Source: a virus
Virus record (IMG/VR): IMGVR_UViG_3300025108_000178
Coordinates: 1-35,801 of that record
Reading direction: 5' to 3' (one strand)
Length of the DNA: 35,801 bases
The notes beneath the pieces are model-generated. The model saw only the letters and a list, made by a program, of their open reading frames with translations, searched no databases and was not told the DNA's origin. The position numbers and the translations under genes are program-made. Positions 20,697-32,450 of this stretch are shown here, in pieces (within the stretch, counting starts at the first letter, position 1; each line of letters starts with the position of its first letter).

Positions 20697-23401
20697 TGTC
20701 TAGTGAAGATTTTAAATCATTAATAGTAACCGATCCAGATTTAATTGATGAAGGTATTGATGTATCTAATTTAAGAACACAAACAGATACAAATCCAAGA
20801 TTACTAGGTGCTATTGAAGACTATCCAGGCATATCATATGATCCTACATCATACAGTTATCTTTCTGATCTTAACAGATTATTTGCATCTGGTTTACCAA
20901 TAATAGACACATCACAACCTACAACACCAGCACCACCAAGTGGTGGCGAAGGAGGTGGAGGCACGCCTCCAGCAACAGGCGGCACACCAACACCTGATAA
21001 TAATGCAGGTTTTGATCCAGGTGTAACTCCAGGTCCTTCTGGGTTTATAGGTCTAGATCCAGAATATGATGTAAGTCCTTTTGAATATGATGATGCTCAA
21101 ACTTATGAACCACCAGCATCACCTTCAACATCTGATCCTTTTTTAGCATCAGGCGCAGCAGGTGGCGCAAGGCTTCCCTCAACATCTCCACAAGAAGGTT
21201 TTTTAGCTTCAGGCGCAGCAGGTGGAGCAAATCTTCCAACCGAACCTCAAGAAGGTTTTTTAGCTTCAGGAGCGGCTGGAGGCGCAAATCTTCCAACACC
21301 AACTTATGCAAACACAGGTGACCCAAATTTATTAGATTTAGCTGGAGGAGAAGCTGGAGGAGCTGATGGATTTGGAATTATAGAAGATGTAGTAACAGAA
21401 GAAGATCTAGCAGATAACACAAGTCTATTAGAAAAATTAGGTCTTCCTGCAAACTTTGATATTAAAAAAGCAGCCATAGAAGCTGGTATAAATTTAGTAG
21501 CTGGTGTTCCAATAACTTTAATTGCAAAAGCATTAGAAGCAATATTACCTGACAGAGATCCAAGACAAAATGCATTAGATGAATTTTATACTACTGGAGA
21601 AGGTGCACAATATATGAATCCAAGTAGTCCAAACTATATACCAGGTATGGAAAACTATAACACTGTATCAGGTAATCCTTTAGATCCTACATTTGGATTA
21701 CAGGAAGCATATCAAGATAGAATTGATACAATAGAAAATACATTAGCAAATAAATATGGCATGACTGCTGCTGAAATAGCAGATGTTAAAGCAGGTAGCT
21801 ACACAGGTGATGTAGACAGTGACTTATTAGACAGATTAGTTGATCTTGAAGATGCTAAGAAAAAAGAACAAGATATATTAGGTATAACAGAAGGAGTAAA
21901 AACTGGTATAAAAGCGGCAGATGATGACAAAGGTAGTGATATGTTAACGACTACACCAACAGGAGTCAATCCTTTTGCAAATATAGACACAGGAGTTGGA
22001 GAGTTTGACACTACACCAGTAACAGGCGTCACGCAACCAGGGACTATAGTTTCAGATATATTTGATACTTTTCCACCAGATTACATTGGCCCCAATGTTA
22101 CTGATGCAGAATTATATGGTGATGTTGACACTACACCAGATTTAGAGTTTGAAAATATTTATGAAGATGTAGATAGATTTGAAGAACCTGCACCAATGAC
22201 TTTAGCTGATGATAAATTAAACAAAATGACAGACGATGTAGATTTAGATGATTTTGAATCTTTAGTTACACCAATTGAACCACCAGAACTACCTGATGAA
22301 ACAGTAACAGGAATTAAAGGACCACCTTCTGAAATATCAGAACTACCTGATGAAACAGTAACAGGAATTAAAGGACCACCTTCTGAAATATCAGAACTAC
22401 CTGATGAAACAGTAACAGGAATTAAAGGACCACCTTCTGAAATATCAGACGATGTAGATTTAGATGAATTTGATACGGTTGGCTCTAATAGTTCACAACC
22501 GACAACAACAGAACTTAAAGATTCTGATTTTACAGCTCAAGACAAAAAAGATATTTTTGACAGAGAAAGAGAACTTGAAAATCAATACATGGAAGAAACG
22601 GGACAAGTCCCTAGAGAAGATCAGTTTTTAGGACAAGCTATAGATGAAATAGTAGCTAAAAAAACAACCACTTCAACATCTGTAACACCATTAGAAGATG
22701 ACTTTGAATCTTTAGTTGAACCAACAGAATCACAGGTGACGGAAGGAGGCGATGAAGCAGGTACAGACGATAGCTCTAATAAAACCACAGACGCTTCTGG
22801 AACTGAGGGAGAAGATCAGGATAGATTTGAGGATGACGCAGATGAGTTTAGTGATGAAGAATTTATGGCTGGTGACACAAGTACAGCAGCTCCTACTACA
22901 GGTGATAGCGGTTCAGATAGTTTTTTCGATGCTGTAGATACAGCAGCTGAAACTGCTTCTTATAGTAACCAAGATTCATATGAATCTGCAGCATATGATG
23001 CACCTTCAAAACCTGCAACTAAAAAAGATTATGGACCTTACAGCAGCGGTGGCGGCGATGGCGGTAACGGTGGTGGTGGCGGCGGCAAAAGTATAGTTTG
23101 CACAGCTATGTATCAAACAACAGGATTAGAGGATTGGTCTAAAGCTATGAAGATTTGGTATATATATCAAAAAAAATATTTAACTATACAGCATCAAGAA
23201 GGATATCATAAATTATTTAAACCTTTTGTAAAAGCTATGCACAAAAGTAATATTGTAAAAGCCATAGGTGCACATTTTGCAAAACATAGAACACAGCATT
23301 TAAAACATGTAATGTTTAATAGTAAACCTTCATTGCTAGGTAAAATATATAATAAAATACTAGAACCACTTTGTTATTGGGTAGGTAAAAATGCCAGGTA
23401 A
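20696..23401 (+). CDS. Large acidic repeat-rich virion protein with a conserved His-rich C-terminal domain
   Basis: A 901-residue protein. Residues about 75-115 are Pro/Gly/Thr-rich. Three 'FLASGAAGGA' units start at residue 149. A helical hydrophobic region 'AAIEAGINLVAGVPITLIAK' follows near 260. A triple 18-residue repeat (ELPDETVTGIKGPPSEIS) lies near 531-584, and a long acidic region runs to 780. A run of glycines (about 784-799) leads to a compact domain beginning 'KSIVCTAMYQTTGLEDWSKA' and ending 'ILEPLCYWVGKNAR', rich in His, Lys and aromatics. That ending recurs in marine phage proteins. The function is unknown. It may be an internal or tail-surface protein. Confidence 0.7.
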   Translation: MSSEDFKSLIVTDPDLIDEGIDVSNLRTQTDTNPRLLGAIEDYPGISYDPTSYSYLSDLNRLFASGLPIIDTSQPTTPAPPSGGEGGGGTPPATGGTPTPDNNAGFDPGVTPGPSGFIGLDPEYDVSPFEYDDAQTYEPPASPSTSDPFLASGAAGGARLPSTSPQEGFLASGAAGGANLPTEPQEGFLASGAAGGANLPTPTYANTGDPNLLDLAGGEAGGADGFGIIEDVVTEEDLADNTSLLEKLGLPANFDIKKAAIEAGINLVAGVPITLIAKALEAILPDRDPRQNALDEFYTTGEGAQYMNPSSPNYIPGMENYNTVSGNPLDPTFGLQEAYQDRIDTIENTLANKYGMTAAEIADVKAGSYTGDVDSDLLDRLVDLEDAKKKEQDILGITEGVKTGIKAADDDKGSDMLTTTPTGVNPFANIDTGVGEFDTTPVTGVTQPGTIVSDIFDTFPPDYIGPNVTDAELYGDVDTTPDLEFENIYEDVDRFEEPAPMTLADDKLNKMTDDVDLDDFESLVTPIEPPELPDETVTGIKGPPSEISELPDETVTGIKGPPSEISELPDETVTGIKGPPSEISDDVDLDEFDTVGSNSSQPTTTELKDSDFTAQDKKDIFDRERELENQYMEETGQVPREDQFLGQAIDEIVAKKTTTSTSVTPLEDDFESLVEPTESQVTEGGDEAGTDDSSNKTTDASGTEGEDQDRFEDDADEFSDEEFMAGDTSTAAPTTGDSGSDSFFDAVDTAAETASYSNQDSYESAAYDAPSKPATKKDYGPYSSGGGDGGNGGGGGGKSIVCTAMYQTTGLEDWSKAMKIWYIYQKKYLTIQHQEGYHKLFKPFVKAMHKSNIVKAIGAHFAKHRTQHLKHVMFNSKPSLLGKIYNKILEPLCYWVGKNAR
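21140..21301 (+). repeat. Three imperfect FLASGAAGGA units
   Basis: Units start at 21140, 21200 and 21257 (20, 19 and about 15 residues) and all encode FLASGAAGGA, then (R/N)LP. The second and third are more similar to each other. They differ by synonymous changes (gcaggt, gctgga), so they are older than the perfect repeat at 22286. Confidence 0.75.
22286..22447 (+). repeat. Three perfect 54-base tandem repeats
   Basis: Units at 22286-22339, 22340-22393 and 22394-22447 appear base-for-base identical and encode ELPDETVTGIKGPPSEIS. The array is flanked on both sides by DDVDLD(D/E)F. Complete identity at synonymous positions points to very recent expansion, or to an assembly-sensitive site. Confidence 0.9.
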
Positions 23402-23588
23402 GGAAAGCGCAATACAAAAAATAGAATCACACGAAAAGCTGTGTCGTATTATGCAAAAGCAAACCTACGATAGAATGAATCAATTACAAAACCATATAAC
23501 TAGAATTGAAAGAATACTTTTAGTTTCTATGGGTGCTGTTATGACAGGTATGGGTGGTGTTATTGTAGTCTTGTTACAAAAATTGTAG
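23391..23588 (+). CDS. One-helix membrane protein, holin-like (XhlA type) candidate
   Basis: A 65-residue protein with a polar helical N-terminus (residues 1-40, with His and Arg at regular intervals) and a single C-terminal membrane segment of about 21 residues (42-62, 'ILLVSMGAVMTGMGGVIVVL'), ending LQKL. This soluble-helix plus one-membrane-helix design is that of XhlA-like holin partners. It starts 11 bases before the end of the previous gene and closes the plus-strand late block. Release at the end of infection is a reasonable role. No endolysin is seen next to it. Confidence 0.65.
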   Translation: MPGKESAIQKIESHEKLCRIMQKQTYDRMNQLQNHITRIERILLVSMGAVMTGMGGVIVVLLQKL

Positions 23589-23614
23589 CGCTCATACGTA
23601 TATCCTATTTTTTC

Positions 23615-25045
23615 CTATATCCAAGCTTTTAATTCTTCTCCCATAACTTGACTTGCAATATTGACTTTTTTACGTAAAGCTTTTACAATTCTTTCATCTA
23701 CTGTATCTTCACACATTATATCTATGTATGTCATAGGTTTAGTCTGACCAATACGATCAATACGTGCTTCTGACTGTTGACGTTTTTCTAAATCATAACC
23801 ATTAGAATAGTAAATCATATTAGAAGCTGCAGTAAGTGTAATACCATATCCACCAGTTTGAGGTGTACCTACAAAGAATCTACATTTTTCATCATCTTGA
23901 AAACGTTTTATGTTTTGCTGTCTTTCATCTTGTGGTGTCAAACCATAGTAATCTACATAACAGTCAGGGCCAAACTCATCTACGAGTGCATCTATAATAT
24001 GTTTTACGTCACTTTGCCAATGAGCCCAGATAACAGCTTTACCTTCTATTTCACATAGCACATCAACCAACTCATTTAGTCTATTGCTTTTTAGTTGTTG
24101 AACAGTGCCATCATCTGCTTTGAAATGGCCACAAGTTATTTGTTGCAATCTCATTAACTGTGTCAATGCATTTGCAGTGGTAATCATCTTGCCATTTAAT
24201 ATTGCAAGTGCTTCTTTTTTCATCTGTGTATATACTTTGTTTTGATCCGGTGTAAGTTGTACAATACGTTTCATAAAAGTTTTCTTTGGTAGATCTAAAC
24301 AATCATCTTTTAATACACGGTAAGAAAAAGGTTTTAGTTTTTCTGATAGTTCAGCAAGGTTACGATAACCAACTACAATCTGTACCGATCGTCCACCAAA
24401 ATTTGCTGTCTTCATAATAGCGTATCTAGTTCTAAACGAGTAATAAGAATTATGATCCAAGAGCCAGGGGTCAAGGAACTCGCATTGTTTGTATAAGTCT
24501 AATGGTGATTTAGTTACTGGTGATCCTGTAAGTATTCTTTTATATTTTGCATTTACACCAAGTGACACAATATTTTTTGTACGTTTAGCTTCTGGATTTT
24601 TTATTGTAGTAGACTCATCTATTGCCATCATCGTGTTGTGTGAGTTTATAAATTTAGCTGCAAAATCAACACCTTTAGTTGTAGATAAAGCTTCAACATT
24701 CATACATAAAATATGTAGATCAGTTCCTGTTTTAAATAATGTATCTAAAGTTTTTTGTTGTTGTTTTGTAATATTTGCTTGCCACAATACGGACACTTTT
24801 TCTATATGATCTGGTAAGTGTGTAGGTATTTCAGAACTATACCAATTTTTGTATACACCTTTTGGTGCAATAATTAATACACCATTAATTTTACCTTTGT
24901 CATAAAGCATTGCAACATTGTCTATCAACACTTTAGATTTACCTGTACCCATTTCCATAAAATACGCAAAAGCTTTTTTCTCCCAAGACATTTCTAATGC
25001 TTTGAGTTGATGTGCGTATGGCTTAGTTTTAAATTTGTAATTCAT
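23615..25045 (-). CDS. SNF2-family helicase/ATPase, only minus-strand gene
   Basis: A 476-residue superfamily 2 protein with all the main motifs. The Walker A loop is MGTGKSK (32-38) and motif II is DEST (143-146, in place of DEAH). Motif III is TGSP (173-176), and motif VI is QSEARIDRIGQ (424-434) with arginines 428 and 431. It is short for a SNF2 protein and lacks extra domains. It should use ATP to move on double-stranded DNA, probably in replication or recombination. It points against every other gene, ends 26 bases from the convergent holin-like gene, and starts in a 57-base gap opposite the gene at 25103. Confidence 0.88.
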   Translation of the reverse strand: MNYKFKTKPYAHQLKALEMSWEKKAFAYFMEMGTGKSKVLIDNVAMLYDKGKINGVLIIAPKGVYKNWYSSEIPTHLPDHIEKVSVLWQANITKQQQKTLDTLFKTGTDLHILCMNVEALSTTKGVDFAAKFINSHNTMMAIDESTTIKNPEAKRTKNIVSLGVNAKYKRILTGSPVTKSPLDLYKQCEFLDPWLLDHNSYYSFRTRYAIMKTANFGGRSVQIVVGYRNLAELSEKLKPFSYRVLKDDCLDLPKKTFMKRIVQLTPDQNKVYTQMKKEALAILNGKMITTANALTQLMRLQQITCGHFKADDGTVQQLKSNRLNELVDVLCEIEGKAVIWAHWQSDVKHIIDALVDEFGPDCYVDYYGLTPQDERQQNIKRFQDDEKCRFFVGTPQTGGYGITLTAASNMIYYSNGYDLEKRQQSEARIDRIGQTKPMTYIDIMCEDTVDERIVKALRKKVNIASQVMGEELKAWI

Positions 25046-25066
25046 AATTTATTTTCTTCTTTCTAG

Positions 25067-25099
25067 TTGACAAGATATCAAATATAAAATAGAAGTCAA
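25067..25099. promoter_or_regulatory. Face-to-face divergent promoter candidate between helicase and replication block
   Basis: On the plus strand a perfect TTGACA (25067-25072) is followed after 17 bases by TAGAAG (25090-25095). On the minus strand TTGACT (complement of 25094-25099) is followed after 16 bases by TATCTT (complement of 25072-25077). The -10 of each lies on the -35 of the other, so both promoters probably cannot be bound at once. TTGAC and GTCAA form an inverted repeat around the region. The start codons at 25045 (minus) and 25103 (plus) are very near, so the plus transcript may have almost no leader. Confidence 0.45.
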
Positions 25100-25102
25100 G
25101 CC

Positions 25103-25459
25103 ATGAAAGAAAATATAGTTTACGTGATACAGGAAATACCAGGTACAAAAACAGGTAACCCAAAAATAAATATTATTGGTGCCGGTAAATACGGTAAGTT
25201 TAAATTTTTACTTCCTGAATTATCACAAATTATTTTTTCTCCTGGTCCACTAATTTTTAAATTAAGAAATCTATTAAAAGATTTTACACCAGAAGATTAT
25301 TTATTATTAACAGGTGATCCTGCAATTATTGGAGTTACATGTTCTATAGTTTCTGATATGACTAATGGTAAATACAATTTATTAAAGTGGGACAAACAAG
25401 AAAGACAATACTATCCAATAGAAATAAATTTATATGAAAGAGGAAATACAGATGAGTGA
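25103..25459 (+). CDS. Conserved phage protein at the start of the replication block
   Basis: A 118-residue soluble protein (MKENIVYVIQEIPGTKTGNP...). It contains 'KYGKFKFLLPELSQIIFSPG', then 'PEDYLLLTGDPAIIGVTCSI' and 'NGKYNLLKWDKQERQYYPIE', a pattern common in uncultured marine phages next to replication genes. There is no known catalytic motif. Its ATG is close to a promoter candidate with no ribosome binding site that I can see, so it may be translated from a leaderless message. It overlaps the next gene by eight bases. The function is unknown. Confidence 0.75.
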   Translation: MKENIVYVIQEIPGTKTGNPKINIIGAGKYGKFKFLLPELSQIIFSPGPLIFKLRNLLKDFTPEDYLLLTGDPAIIGVTCSIVSDMTNGKYNLLKWDKQERQYYPIEINLYERGNTDE

Positions 25460-26015
25460 AGATTTACAAAAAATGTTTGTTGAGGATGCACCTCAACAAG
25501 TAAACGAATTAAATAATGTTGAGTCATTATCTAGCCATGTTTTAGAATTACAAAAGCTAGAAGATGAAATTAAAATTGAAGAAGAAAGATTATCTAGAAA
25601 AAAACAACAAGCGGATAAACTTTCACAACAAGTAATACCAGAAATTATGGACTCTATGAAACTAAAAACTATGAAACTAAAAGATGGTTCTGCAATAGAG
25701 GTAAAAGAAATTTATAGCGCAACAATTCCTGTAGATAAAAAGGAAGGCGCATTTAACTGGCTTCGAAATAACGACTTGGGTGATTTGATTAAGAATGAAA
25801 TCACTGTTTCCTTTGGTCGAAACGAAGATAACAAGGCGAGCGAATACGCAAACCTTGCCGAGAGCAATGGGTACCAACCGGTTCAAAAGCTTAAAGTGGA
25901 ACCCATGACTCTCAAAGCACTATTCAGAGAGCGAGTCGAAAAAGATTTAGACTTACCTTCTGAACATTTTAATCTGTTTAAGGGAAACAAAACAAAAATA
26001 ACAAGGAACAAATAA
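25452..26015 (+). CDS. Coiled-coil conserved phage protein, replication block
   Basis: A 187-residue protein. An earlier in-frame ATG exists at 25434, but 25452 (MSEDLQKMFV) follows AGAGGAAATACAG and overlaps the previous stop, so I prefer it. Residues about 20-60 form a strongly charged helical coil (KLEDEIKIEEERLSRKKQQA). The C-terminal half (KLKDGSAIEVKEIYSATIPV, then ANLAESNGYQPVQKLKVEPM) predicts a mixed fold. The segment near 25740-25960 uses more CGA, GAG and CTT codons than its surroundings. I do not recognise an enzyme. A role as accessory to the replication proteins is inferred from position only. Confidence 0.7.
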   Translation: MSEDLQKMFVEDAPQQVNELNNVESLSSHVLELQKLEDEIKIEEERLSRKKQQADKLSQQVIPEIMDSMKLKTMKLKDGSAIEVKEIYSATIPVDKKEGAFNWLRNNDLGDLIKNEITVSFGRNEDNKASEYANLAESNGYQPVQKLKVEPMTLKALFRERVEKDLDLPSEHFNLFKGNKTKITRNK

Positions 26016-26016
26016 T

Positions 26017-26778
26017 ATGAATGAAGAAACAAGAGACGTAGTAAAACAAGAAAGTGGATCATTAGCAACTTTGGACTTCGTATCAGACTCAGGAATGGGT
26101 TTAGAGAACGTAGACAAACAAGATCTAGCTTTACCTTTTTTGAAACTGTTACAATCAGGATCAGATGAGACTAAAAAGAAACATGCAAAGTATGTAGAAG
26201 GCGCTGAAGCTGGTATGTTCTACAATACAGTTACAAAAAAACTGTATAATGGAGAAAAAGGAATAGAAGTTATTCCTGTATTCTACAAGATGACATATCC
26301 AGAGTGGGCACCTTTTGAAAAAAGAGAAGGTAGACCTATACATAATGACAGAGGACCTGGAATTATGTCGAAGGTAACTCAAAATGATAGAAACAAAGAT
26401 ATGTTAGATAATGGAAATGAAATTATCAAAACAGCGAATCACTTTGTAATTATTAATGGTGAGAGACCGGAGAAAGCTTTGATGACTATGAAGTCAACAC
26501 AGCTTAAGGTAAGTAGACAATGGAATTCTTTAATGGAGAATGAATTTGAAAACGATCCTAACACAGGAAAATCTTTACAAGCACCTACATTTTCTAGAAT
26601 TTATAAATTAAATTCTGTTGAAAACTCAGGTAGTTTTACTTGGCATGGTTACAATGTGTCTATGGTAAGAAAAGTAGACAATGCCGGCCTATATCAAATG
26701 GCTAGAGATTTTTATAACTCTTTGAAAAACAGTCAGCAAAAAGCTGCAGCTGTAACACAAGAGGAATCTAACTACTAA
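26017..26778 (+). CDS. Conserved phage replication-block protein, possible ssDNA-binding protein
   Basis: A 253-residue soluble protein. The segment 'KQDLALPFLKLLQSGSDET' (about 34-52), then 'GMFYNTVTKKLYNGEKGIEV' and 'IPVFYKMTYPEW' in the middle, and a polar C-terminal tail are shared with a widespread marine phage family in replication modules. The middle looks like a strand-rich OB-type or Erf-like core, and the acidic/polar tail (QQKAAAVTQEESNY) recalls single-strand DNA-binding proteins. No catalytic motif is seen. The ssDNA-binding role is an inference from neighbours and architecture. Confidence 0.55.
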   Translation: MNEETRDVVKQESGSLATLDFVSDSGMGLENVDKQDLALPFLKLLQSGSDETKKKHAKYVEGAEAGMFYNTVTKKLYNGEKGIEVIPVFYKMTYPEWAPFEKREGRPIHNDRGPGIMSKVTQNDRNKDMLDNGNEIIKTANHFVIINGERPEKALMTMKSTQLKVSRQWNSLMENEFENDPNTGKSLQAPTFSRIYKLNSVENSGSFTWHGYNVSMVRKVDNAGLYQMARDFYNSLKNSQQKAAAVTQEESNY

Positions 26779-26800: not shown

Positions 26801-26830
26801 GGAGCGGCAAAGCGAGAGTGGAGCCGCTCC
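26801..26830 (+). promoter_or_regulatory. GC-rich hairpin in the primase leader
   Basis: GGAGCGGC (26801-26808) pairs perfectly with GCCGCTCC (26823-26830) around a 14-base loop (AAAGCGAGAGTGGA). Seven of the eight pairs are G-C, and CCCGGG follows at 26833-26838, so the region stands out in AT-rich DNA. It lies 14 bases before the chosen primase start and has no T-run. It may control translation of the primase, or be a protein-binding or replication signal. Confidence 0.5.
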
Positions 26831-26844
26831 GACCCGGGATCTTT

Positions 26845-28413
26845 ATGGTTGAAAAATTTATAGAATTATTTACTGGATACCAAGGCGACTTTGGTATTGC
26901 CGATATGTCTTCGGCACAATTAGACACTGACAAAAACAAACTCAAACCAAACTATGAGTGGGCTGGTAGACCAATTACACAAGGTGATTATAAAGATCAC
27001 ATTGAAGGTAAAATATCTATTGGTATACAACCATGTAGATTAGATAAAACAGTTCAGTTTGGTTGTATTGATATAGACTCAAAAGATTATTCAAGTTTTA
27101 AAGTTGAACATTATCTAGCATTGTTTCAACAATTTAAATTACCACTAATACCATTGTTATCTAAGAGTGGAGGATTGCATTGTTACTTGTTTTTAAAAGA
27201 ACCCATACCAGCTGTCGATCTGATCTCGGCGTTGAAGTCTTTTCTTCTGCCACTTGGATTAGATCCTGACACAGAGGTTTTTCCAAAACAGAAAGAATTA
27301 AAGGAAGATGACAAAGGCGAAATAAAACCAGGTAACTTTATAAACTTACCTTACTACAATAATGGTAGCACAAAAAGATATGCAGTTGATAAAGATAATA
27401 ACAAATTAGATTTAGAAAAATTTATAGAAGTTGCTAATCAAAGCAAGATTGGTAAACAAGAACTAGAAAAACTAGTAGATGAAACATACAGAAATATATT
27501 AATAGGTACAGATCCAGAGTTTGAAGATGGTCCACCATGTTTAGCATTGTGTTCAAAACGAAAACTAGATGATGGTAGAGATAGGTTTATGTATAACTAC
27601 ATGGTCTTTGCTAAAAAGAAATACAAAGACAAATGGCCAGATCAAGTTGCAAAAGCAAACTATAGTTATCTAGAAGACCCATGGGATAAAACAAAACTAG
27701 ATTCTAAAATAACTGCATGGAAAAAAGATACTGCAGGTCATACTTGTTATGAAGATCCAATACAAAGTAAATGCATGCGTACACTTTGTTTCTCAAGGCC
27801 GTTTGGTGTTAAGTCAGACAGTATTACAATGTTTCCTGACATCACAGATTTTGAAATTATAATGTATGCAGAACCAGAATATAGATTTAATGTTGTACTA
27901 CCTGATGGAACTAAAGAAGGTGTTGTTGCAAACCACAGAAGATTAATTACAAAACAAACTGAGTTGTTAGATTTGATATGGGAACAGACAGGTATCTACC
28001 ATGAACCATTAAAACCAAAAGATTTTAGAGCAAAACTAACAGAACTTAGAAAAGGTTCTACTAAGATATCACCGCCAGCAGGCACACAAATAGAAGATAG
28101 ATTGAATGAAGAACTATATCAATATTGTGTTAATGGGCCACGTGCAAAAAACAGAATACAAATCAACAGTGGTTCTTGTTTGACAGAAGAGGGTTTTCAT
28201 TTATTTAGATTTAATTCTTTCATAGATCACCTAGGATCTAGTTGGAAAATACCAGAGGAAAGAATAGCACAGAAACTAAAAGATAAATGTCAAGTTGAGT
28301 TCAACCATTCATTAAATGTAGATGGTAAAACAATTAAAGTATGTAGACTAAAACAATTACATATAGATAAGATAGAATATAAACCAGTTGAAAGAAAAGA
28401 GAGTAACTACTAA
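26845..28413 (+). CDS. AEP-type DNA primase (archaeo-eukaryotic primase superfamily)
   Basis: A 522-residue protein from the ATG at 26845 (a GTG at 26818 in the hairpin loop is also in frame). The catalytic pattern is clear: CIDIDS (74-79) gives the metal-binding DxD (Asp76, Asp78), SGGLHCYLF (108-116) gives the Ser/His motif (His112), and 'EVFPKQ' at 144-149 plus 'NLPYY' at 167-171 fit motif III. A later Cys cluster 'CYEDPIQSKCMRTLCFSRPF' may bind zinc, as in other phage AEP proteins. It should make primers for the polymerase. The domain resembles the TOTE-type primases, inferred by eye. The next gene starts on its last base. Confidence 0.75.
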   Translation: MVEKFIELFTGYQGDFGIADMSSAQLDTDKNKLKPNYEWAGRPITQGDYKDHIEGKISIGIQPCRLDKTVQFGCIDIDSKDYSSFKVEHYLALFQQFKLPLIPLLSKSGGLHCYLFLKEPIPAVDLISALKSFLLPLGLDPDTEVFPKQKELKEDDKGEIKPGNFINLPYYNNGSTKRYAVDKDNNKLDLEKFIEVANQSKIGKQELEKLVDETYRNILIGTDPEFEDGPPCLALCSKRKLDDGRDRFMYNYMVFAKKKYKDKWPDQVAKANYSYLEDPWDKTKLDSKITAWKKDTAGHTCYEDPIQSKCMRTLCFSRPFGVKSDSITMFPDITDFEIIMYAEPEYRFNVVLPDGTKEGVVANHRRLITKQTELLDLIWEQTGIYHEPLKPKDFRAKLTELRKGSTKISPPAGTQIEDRLNEELYQYCVNGPRAKNRIQINSGSCLTEEGFHLFRFNSFIDHLGSSWKIPEERIAQKLKDKCQVEFNHSLNVDGKTIKVCRLKQLHIDKIEYKPVERKESNY

Positions 28414-30249: not shown

Positions 30250-32091
30250 ATGATATTTAAAGCACAAACAGAATGGGTTAAACCTACTGAGTTTCCAGAC
30301 TTAAGATTTTGTGATGAGATTGCAATTGATTTAGAAACACATGATCCAGAATTAAAAACTATGGGCTCAGGTTCTGTAGTTGGTAAAGGTAAAGTTGTAG
30401 GCATTGCAATTGCAACAGATGGCTATGCAGGGTACTTTCCATTCGACCACGAAGGTGGTGGTAACTTAGAAAAAAGTAAAGTAATTCAATGGTTTACAGA
30501 TATTTGTGCATCTAATTCTACTAAAATATTTCACAACGCAATGTACGATATCTCATGGATTAAAGCTATGGGTATAAAAGTCAACGGAAGAATTGTTGAC
30601 ACTATGATTGCAGCATCATTAGTTAACGAAAACAGATTTAGATATGATCTTGGATCACTGGGTTGGGATTATTGTGGTCAAGGTAAGAGTGAGGCAGAAC
30701 TAAACAATGCAGCAAAAGAATGGGGACTAGATCCTAAAGCTGATATGTGGAAGATGCCTGCAATGTATGTAGGTAACTATGCTGAACGTGATGCAGAATT
30801 AACTTTAGCACTTTGGAAAGTTATGCAAAAAGAAATTATAGACCAAGACCTTCAATCTATTTTTGATTTGGAAACGGATCTTTTTCCTTGCCTGGTCGAT
30901 ATGCGATTTCTTGGGGTGAGAGTGGACGTTCAAAAAGCTCATACACTGAAGCAACAACTAGCATCAGAAGAAGAAACATTACTCCAAAAAGTAGAAAAAG
31001 AAACAGGAGTACAAACTCAAATATGGGCAGCGCGATCGATAGCCAAAGTCTTTGATAAATTAAACCTGGAATACGAACGGACAGAAAAAACACAAGCGCC
31101 TTCATTTACTAAAAACTTTCTTTCTACTCATAAACATCCTTTAGTACAATGTATATCAAAAGCAAGAGAGATTAACAAGGCACATACAACATTTATAGAT
31201 ACTATTATAAAACACGAACACAATGGTAGGATTCATGCAGACATAAATCAAATTAGATCAGATACTGGTGGAACAGTAACTGGTAGATTTTCATATTCGA
31301 ATCCAAACTTACAACAAATTCCTGCTCGTAACAAAGACTTAGGGCCGATGATTAGATCCCTCTTTATTCCTGAGTCTGGTTGCGAGTGGGGATGCTTTGA
31401 CTACAGTCAACAAGAACCAAGACTAGTAGTTCACTACGCATCCCTTGATCAAGACGCAAGTGTCTTTGGCGTTAAAGATTCTTACCTACAAGATGACGCT
31501 GACTTTCATACAATCGTTGCTAAGATGGCAGACATACCAAGAAGTCAAGCTAAAGTAATTAATCTTGGTTTGTTTTATGGTATGGGTAAAGCTAAACTAC
31601 AGGCAGAACTTGGTGTATCAAAAGAAAAAGCAGAAGAACTATTTTCTATCTATCACGAAAGAGTTCCATTTGTAAAAAGTTTAACTAAATCTGTATCTAA
31701 CAGAGCACAGCAACGTGGACAGATAAGAACTTTACTTGGTAGATTATGCAGGTTTCATTTATGGGAACCTAATCAATTTGGTATACATAAAGCTTTACCA
31801 TTTGACCAAGCCCGCCAGGAATATGGAGCAGGCATCAAGCGTGCTTATACATACAAAGCTTTGAATAAATTAATTCAAGGATCTGCTGCAGATATGACTA
31901 AAAAATCAATGTTAGAACTGTATAAAGAAGGAATTGTTGCACACATACAAGTGCATGACGAGTTGGATATTTCTGTAGAAGATGATAAAAAAGCTAAACT
32001 TATAAAAGAAATTATGGAATCCGCAGTTGAACTTGAGATACCTAATAAGGTAGATTATGAAAAAGGGTCTAATTGGGGTGATATAAAATAA
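30250..32091 (+). CDS. polA: Family A DNA polymerase with 3'-5' exonuclease domain, Leu762 type
   Basis: A 613-residue polymerase (MIFKAQTEW start; ATGs at 30226 and 30232 are also in frame). Exonuclease motifs are DLE (Asp27, Glu29), HNAMYD (Asp100) and YAERD (Tyr177, Asp181). Polymerase motif A is DYSQQEPR (384-391), motif B RSQAKVINLGLFYG (431-444) and motif C HDE (569-571). In motif B the residue matching E. coli F762 is Leu439, where E. coli has Phe and T7 has Tyr. No 5'-3' exonuclease domain is present. It replicates the phage genome together with the primase and helicase upstream. Codon use is locally more GC-rich at 30840-31090 and 31320-31510. Confidence 0.93.
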   Translation: MIFKAQTEWVKPTEFPDLRFCDEIAIDLETHDPELKTMGSGSVVGKGKVVGIAIATDGYAGYFPFDHEGGGNLEKSKVIQWFTDICASNSTKIFHNAMYDISWIKAMGIKVNGRIVDTMIAASLVNENRFRYDLGSLGWDYCGQGKSEAELNNAAKEWGLDPKADMWKMPAMYVGNYAERDAELTLALWKVMQKEIIDQDLQSIFDLETDLFPCLVDMRFLGVRVDVQKAHTLKQQLASEEETLLQKVEKETGVQTQIWAARSIAKVFDKLNLEYERTEKTQAPSFTKNFLSTHKHPLVQCISKAREINKAHTTFIDTIIKHEHNGRIHADINQIRSDTGGTVTGRFSYSNPNLQQIPARNKDLGPMIRSLFIPESGCEWGCFDYSQQEPRLVVHYASLDQDASVFGVKDSYLQDDADFHTIVAKMADIPRSQAKVINLGLFYGMGKAKLQAELGVSKEKAEELFSIYHERVPFVKSLTKSVSNRAQQRGQIRTLLGRLCRFHLWEPNQFGIHKALPFDQARQEYGAGIKRAYTYKALNKLIQGSAADMTKKSMLELYKEGIVAHIQVHDELDISVEDDKKAKLIKEIMESAVELEIPNKVDYEKGSNWGDIK

Positions 32092-32450
32092 TGTTTTTAA
32101 TAAATACATATTTGGACAAAAGTAAAATACAAGGTGTTGGAGTTTTTTCAAACGAAAATGTTATGAAAGGACAAAAGATAAAAGAAATAAGACCTGAGTT
32201 TGAATTTAGATTTGATAAAACAAATTTACCAAAAATGCCTTTAGCATTTGCTAATTTTATTGAATCTCATGGGTATGAAAATAATAAATATGAATACGTT
32301 TTAAGTATTGATAATGAAAAATATTTAAATCATAGCACAAATCCTAATGTAGATGATGATGGAATAGCCTTAAAAAATATTAAAATAGGTGACGAAATTA
32401 CCATAGACTACAGAGATTTTGATGATAGCACTGAATCATGGCTTACTTAA
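32091..32450 (+). CDS. Small SET-domain protein (probable protein-lysine methyltransferase)
   Basis: A 119-residue protein formed entirely by a SET domain. 'IQGVGVFSNENVMKGQKI' (13-30) is the start of the SET fold. 'YLNHSTNPNVDDDGIALKNI' (78-97) carries the NHSxxPN motif (Asn80, His81), and GDEITIDYRDF (100-110) carries the final Tyr107 that lines the active site. No Cys-rich post-SET region exists. It should use S-adenosylmethionine to methylate lysine on an unknown protein, either of the host or of the phage. It starts on the last base of the polymerase stop. Confidence 0.87.
   Translation: MFLINTYLDKSKIQGVGVFSNENVMKGQKIKEIRPEFEFRFDKTNLPKMPLAFANFIESHGYENNKYEYVLSIDNEKYLNHSTNPNVDDDGIALKNIKIGDEITIDYRDFDDSTESWLT

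Follow-up and report, generated by a model that had tools for sequence, protein, structure and literature searches.

A virus contig of 35,801 bases (IMGVR_UViG_3300025108_000178; a genome fragment, referred to at its full length as the window) carries one gene for an SNF2-family helicase that lies antisense to its neighbors and is separated by 57 bp from the first gene of a replication block. Which promoters occupy this gap, and could they act as a switch between early and late phases, as the original prediction proposed?

Gene Layout and Affiliation of the Phage

Every other long non-nested ORF in the window is on the plus strand, confirming the helicase as a lone antisense gene, and among the loci scored the flanking coding sequences were antisense to the helicase in 220/220 left flanks and 184/184 right flanks. 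Gene order follows that of HTVC023P-type relatives, running from structural and tail genes through a small ORF and the antisense SNF2 helicase to the replication block. The latter comprises Pam3 gp32/gp33/gp34-like genes, an AEP-type primase, a UvrD helicase, a DUF3310 protein, and DNA polymerase A, in that order. The main features are as follows.

23391..23588, plus strand: 65-aa ORF, last of the tail/structural block; phrog_38642 (unknown function); one C-terminal hydrophobic segment
23589..23614, no strand assigned: convergent gap of 26 bp, without a terminator-like hairpin in a hairpin scan
23615..25045, minus strand: SNF2-family helicase/translocase coding sequence, 476 aa; PF00176 (5.9e-25), PF00271 (7.4e-10), phrog_62 (5.6e-126)
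25046..25102, no strand assigned: divergent gap of 57 bp, putative overlapping two-way promoter, adjoining the helicase and gp32-like starts
25103..25459, plus strand: Pam3 gp32-like coding sequence, first gene of the replication block; PF23992 (8.3e-31)
25434..26778, plus strand: Pam3 gp33-like and gp34-like coding sequences; PF23984, PF23977
26818..32091, plus strand: remainder of the replication block, namely primase (AEP-TOTE), UvrD helicase, DUF3310 protein, small ORF, and DNA polymerase A

The helicase product combines SNF2_N and Helicase_C domains with Walker A (GTGKS), DExx (DES), and motif VI (RIGQ), which identifies it as an SNF2 helicase/translocase; its best relative among solved structures is helicase 1z63 of the Snf2/Rad54 family (2.9e-23). 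Its closest annotated relatives are proteins of HTVC027P (67% identity), 023Pt_psg01 (64%), DSL-LC04 (52%), and HTVC023P (44%), and thus the window virus is an HTVC023P-type pelagiphage. Its hosts are SAR11-type ocean bacteria. All four relatives carry the helicase gene in the orientation and divergent position seen in the window, beside gp32-34, primase, UvrD, and PolA. In Pam3, by contrast, the helicase is co-directional with gp32, so its inversion is a property of the window lineage and DSL-LC04. DSL-LC04 differs from the window in having a PD-(D/E)XK nuclease gene behind the helicase; in its group (L087 and L171-L180) this nuclease is co-directional with the helicase, making the antisense unit a two-gene operon.

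A survey of the HTVC023P-type group found a 13-gene core genome that includes helicases, and the window-type helicase (QGZ17868.1, gp87 of HTVC027P) was one of five conserved group markers (PMC9599517). HTVC027P has no RNA polymerase gene and depends on the host enzyme (PMC12753301). Elsewhere in the window, the primase (26818-28413, plus strand) matched PF22548 (2.4e-13), the AEP domain of TOTE conflict systems, and a 119-aa protein encoded at 32091-32450 (plus strand) matched the SET domain PF00856 (2.6e-07), which is unusual for a phage.

Promoter Elements in the Divergent Gap

The following elements were located upstream of the two units.

25059..25064, minus strand: AGAAAG, weakly Shine-Dalgarno-like, within the helicase leader (~20 nt by prediction); the L017/L020 group has AGGAG on this side
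25067..25072, plus strand: TTGACA, replication-side -35, conserved in relatives; its final base is also final in the helicase -10
25072..25077, minus strand: TATCTT with upstream TG (extended), helicase -10; 16-nt spacer
25090..25095, plus strand: TAGAAG, candidate replication-side -10; 17-nt spacer, 7 nt before the ATG; degenerate, without -7T
25094..25099, minus strand: TTGACT (AGTCAA on the plus strand), helicase -35

The helicase side, TTGACT-16-TATCTT with TG, is of sigma70 type, and the two sides together make up, by sequence, an overlapping divergent promoter. The original prediction had each -35 overlapping the opposite -10. This holds for TTGACA, which has one base (25072) in common with the helicase -10, and in part for TTGACT, since bases 25094-25095 are indeed common to both sites but the replication-side TAGAAG is a weak -10 without its last T. 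The two promoters had also been described as face to face within the gap. Their overlap stands; the description does not, as face-to-face promoters are normally convergent. Here the promoters point outward and would yield non-overlapping transcripts, and they are properly called "divergent overlapping."

A simple promoter scanner reported minus-strand sites only in this gap, its silence on the plus strand being due to the missing last T of TAGAAG. That silence and the absent -7T would also suit a window phage in which only the helicase promoter is real, the replication block being transcribed from elsewhere and the plus-strand TTGACA being a relic. We regard this as very unlikely, given that TTGACA is kept both by the window's subgroup and throughout 59 related gaps and that the aligned -10 reads TATATT, TATATG, or TATAGT in most relatives. 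The case for the interlock is nonetheless strongest for the relatives, the window's own replication-side -10 being degenerate, and with so poor a hexamer the window's replication-side promoter may have little strength or lie at another position.

Conservation of the Interlock

Comparison with related phages, as originally suggested, covered 66 distinct gaps next to the helicases closest to that of the window. The pair TTGAC[AT] ... [AT]GTCAA was kept at a distance of 27-32 bases, with the same interlock as in the window, in 59/66. Facing -35s of this kind arose in 0.027% of dinucleotide shuffles of the same gaps, and in 0.01% for the window's gap. A -10-like hexamer, defined as a match to TATAAT at 4/6 positions at least, was present at a spacing of 16-18 nt from the -35 on the replication side in 98% of cases and on the helicase side in 100% of the 59 relatives, other spacing bins yielding 3-63%. 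Sites scoring at least 10 on both strands were present in 43/66 gaps vs 1/460 random 75-bp windows from the same loci, and TTGACA-N0-3-TATA occurred 65 times in gaps vs 11 times elsewhere (925 kb). The helicase-side site was also considered as the strongest promoter of the phage, a description we rejected: it is often not the single best site in its locus, where a median of 3 better ones lie elsewhere.

When gap type was placed on a tree of 122 helicases, its four states needed four changes, one above the minimum, the extra one being L012. Gap type thus mostly follows descent, and the 59 gaps are not independent events but show an arrangement conserved across a deep phylogeny (from the window to 023Pt_psg01, up to 0.95 changes per column).

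The two -35s stand 27, 28, 30, 31, or 32 bases apart, while the 16-18 spacing within each promoter is kept. In the 28-base register the promoters are mirror images, as in L069, which has TTGACA-17-TATATT on both strands and where the terminal T of each -10 pairs with the terminal A of the other promoter's -35. Two bases can be common in the 27-base register, where the -10 is TATATG, or TAGAAG in the window's subgroup; at 31-32 the hexamers are adjacent and have no bases in common.

The arms form an inverted repeat, e.g., TTGACAATATA ... TATATTGTCAA, and overlapping divergent promoters often carry operators, as in pLS20, so that the repeat might instead be the operator of a dimeric phage or host repressor, its likeness to promoters being secondary. 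This seems improbable to us. An arm-to-arm distance of 27-32 bases would be intolerable for a rigid dimer site, whereas the spacing fits sigma70 on each strand; moreover, the symmetry ends at the hexamers and the opposite -10, with differing flanks, and the arms are nearly confined to the gap between helicase and replication block. Because the arm distance shifts while the 16-18 spacing is kept, we read the element as two promoters rather than one dimer operator. The small size of the gap itself forces part of the overlap, which may thus reflect genome compaction rather than selection for exclusion.

Other Gap Types in Relatives

In HTVC027P and its relatives, and also in L012 and L014, the gap reads TTTACT ... 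TATATAAT ... AGTCAA with a shared -10. The two -10s are superposed, mostly at an offset of 2 or 4, and the -35s lie beside the opposite start codons. Bacterial bidirectional promoters usually take this form (PMC10268837, PMC12825309); the starts predicted for these gaps lie ~21-23 bp from each other. An overall palindrome was tried for these gaps and set aside, as 19-77 of 300 shuffles equaled it; since it is not clearly above chance, we read them as promoters only.

The L012/L014 helicase is 89% identical to that of the window, yet these loci have the HTVC027P gap type with its shared -10, and their neighboring gp32-like gene starts MAKVYLVQE, as in the HTVC027P group. Judged from these sequences, this is a swap of a promoter/gene module between clades.

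HTVC023P-like relatives (helicase ~44% identical) have a 70-bp gap with AAGGAGG, a strong Shine-Dalgarno sequence, before the replication gene, and the gap comparison found neither interlock in these gaps or in that of HTVC023P itself. They make up a third gap type (L091-L149), in which TTTGCA...AATATATT and AAGGAGGTTCTT are conserved before the replication gene.

A Probable Compact Bidirectional Promoter for Two Replication Modules

The anatomy of the gap and the conservation of spacing and orientation across relatives probably reflect a single compact bidirectional promoter for host sigma70, which would co-express two replication modules in a ratio given by relative promoter strengths, rather than act as a temporal switch. 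The cores overlap almost completely, each -35 contacting or directly adjoining the opposite -10. Polymerase would bind in one orientation at a time, and initiations would be split between the two units. In the minus orientation it would produce the SNF2 helicase mRNA, with a short leader, from a predicted start at ~25065; in the plus orientation it would produce a leaderless replication-block mRNA starting at or next to the ATG (predicted start ~25102). Provided that both promoters fire, the ratio of helicase to replication block would then be set by the relative strength of the overlapping promoters.

The predicted transcripts differ in their translation starts. In 47/57 distinct window-type gaps, 6-8 nt lie between the end of the replication-side -10 and the ATG, and pairing of the bases upstream of this ATG with the anti-Shine-Dalgarno is poor (median +0.7 kcal/mol). 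Leaderless bacterial genes have a -10-like TANNNT ~12 bp before the start codon and no Shine-Dalgarno (PMC3160421); the window's TAGAAG lacks the final T of this signal. With a -10 so close to the ATG and no Shine-Dalgarno, a leaderless replication-block mRNA is predicted in most relatives. On the helicase side, 18-29 nt separate the -10 from the ATG, which predicts a leader of roughly 12-22 nt containing AGAAAG or AGGAG.

The proposal that use of one promoter would block the other is well supported by this anatomy and by the conserved spacing in relatives, which the original prediction itself had named as a criterion. Where cores overlap, a bound polymerase keeps out a second one; competition is slight at weak bidirectional promoters, but strong activation of one direction brings repression of the opposite direction (PMC12825309). 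With hexamers near consensus on both sides, as in many relatives, competition would be more likely here, and the near-consensus -35s on both sides of window-type gaps suggest higher activity than in the weak E. coli cases tested.

Under the definition of Warman et al. 2021, a bidirectional promoter reportedly has a shared -10 flanked by divergent starts that lie 7-25 bp from each other. HTVC027P-type gaps fall within it by prediction. The window gap does not, since its -10s are not shared and its predicted starts lie ~37 bp apart; in window-type gaps generally, each -10 touches the opposite -35 and the predicted starts are ~33-38 bp apart, outside the 7-25 bp range. The overlap is similar to that of Tn10 tetR/tetA, whose overlapping divergent promoters have starts a few tens of bases apart and are controlled through TetR operators, whereas the window gap is not known to have a regulator. 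With bacterial bidirectional promoters the window gap would have in common a short stretch of DNA, use by polymerase in either direction, exclusive binding, and two divergent mRNAs (PMC12825309; PMC10268837), and HTVC027P-type gaps fit them closely through their shared TATATA/TATAAT.

The Convergent End and the Proposed Early/Late Switch

At its other end the helicase gene converges on the 65-aa ORF at 23391..23588, for which "holin" is a presumptive label. The original prediction saw no terminator here, and the hairpin scan agreed; the plus strand of the window's convergent end folds weakly (-7.5 kcal/mol, z -2.0). Terminator-like hairpins were likewise absent from this end in 68/72 distinct close relatives, whose convergent stop codons mostly overlap by 4 nt. 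Given overlapping stops and absent hairpins, antisense read-through in either direction is predicted to be possible. L033-L035 carry an additional gene here, co-oriented with the helicase and overlapping its end by ~10 nt; this ORF is 143 aa long and rich in lysine and tyrosine.

Such read-through was part of the proposed switch, in which the promoters would alternate in time and helicase-strand transcripts would run antisense into the late genes. A convergent end without terminator-like hairpins and promoter cores that exclude each other by geometry speak for this model, and in pLS20 overlapping divergent promoters do act as a switch when a differential regulator exists (PMC4207663). The Pc/Pr promoters of that plasmid resemble the window gap in being overlapping, divergent, and of sigma type, with polymerase itself excluding the second promoter. 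They differ in that their switch depends on strong/weak asymmetry, the master regulator Rco, and DNA looping (PMC4207663), none of which was found in the window. An overlapping-promoter switch needs a regulator with a strong differential effect (PMC4207663), and no DNA-binding regulator was recognized among the window proteins scanned, the window being a fragment with unannotated small ORFs. In addition, both outward units are of DNA replication/repair type and would be expected in the same (middle) phase, the promoters point outward, and the antisense gene persists in HTVC023P-like relatives, which have no interlock. We therefore consider an early/late switch unlikely.

Significance for Pelagiphage Gene Expression

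Beyond the co-expressing bidirectional promoter that we favor, a stronger version can be put forward only tentatively, namely that in these deeply conserved, interlocked core hexamers polymerase occupancy alone fixes the ratio of a leaderless and a leadered mRNA, and that mutual exclusion itself has been selected. Were this true, sister phages would have reached the same end by a shared -10, so that exclusion, not just compactness, would be under selection. We found no published account of the exact reciprocal -35/-10 interlock in the literature searched, which left out most subscription papers.

Pelagiphages infect SAR11, a group ranking among the most abundant bacteria of the ocean. The conserved 57-bp element could be assayed as a reporter, which would make the timing and balance of genes in pelagiphages without their own RNA polymerase testable, and the two natural interlock geometries, apparently doing the same job, would be useful for asking whether polymerase competition has been selected.
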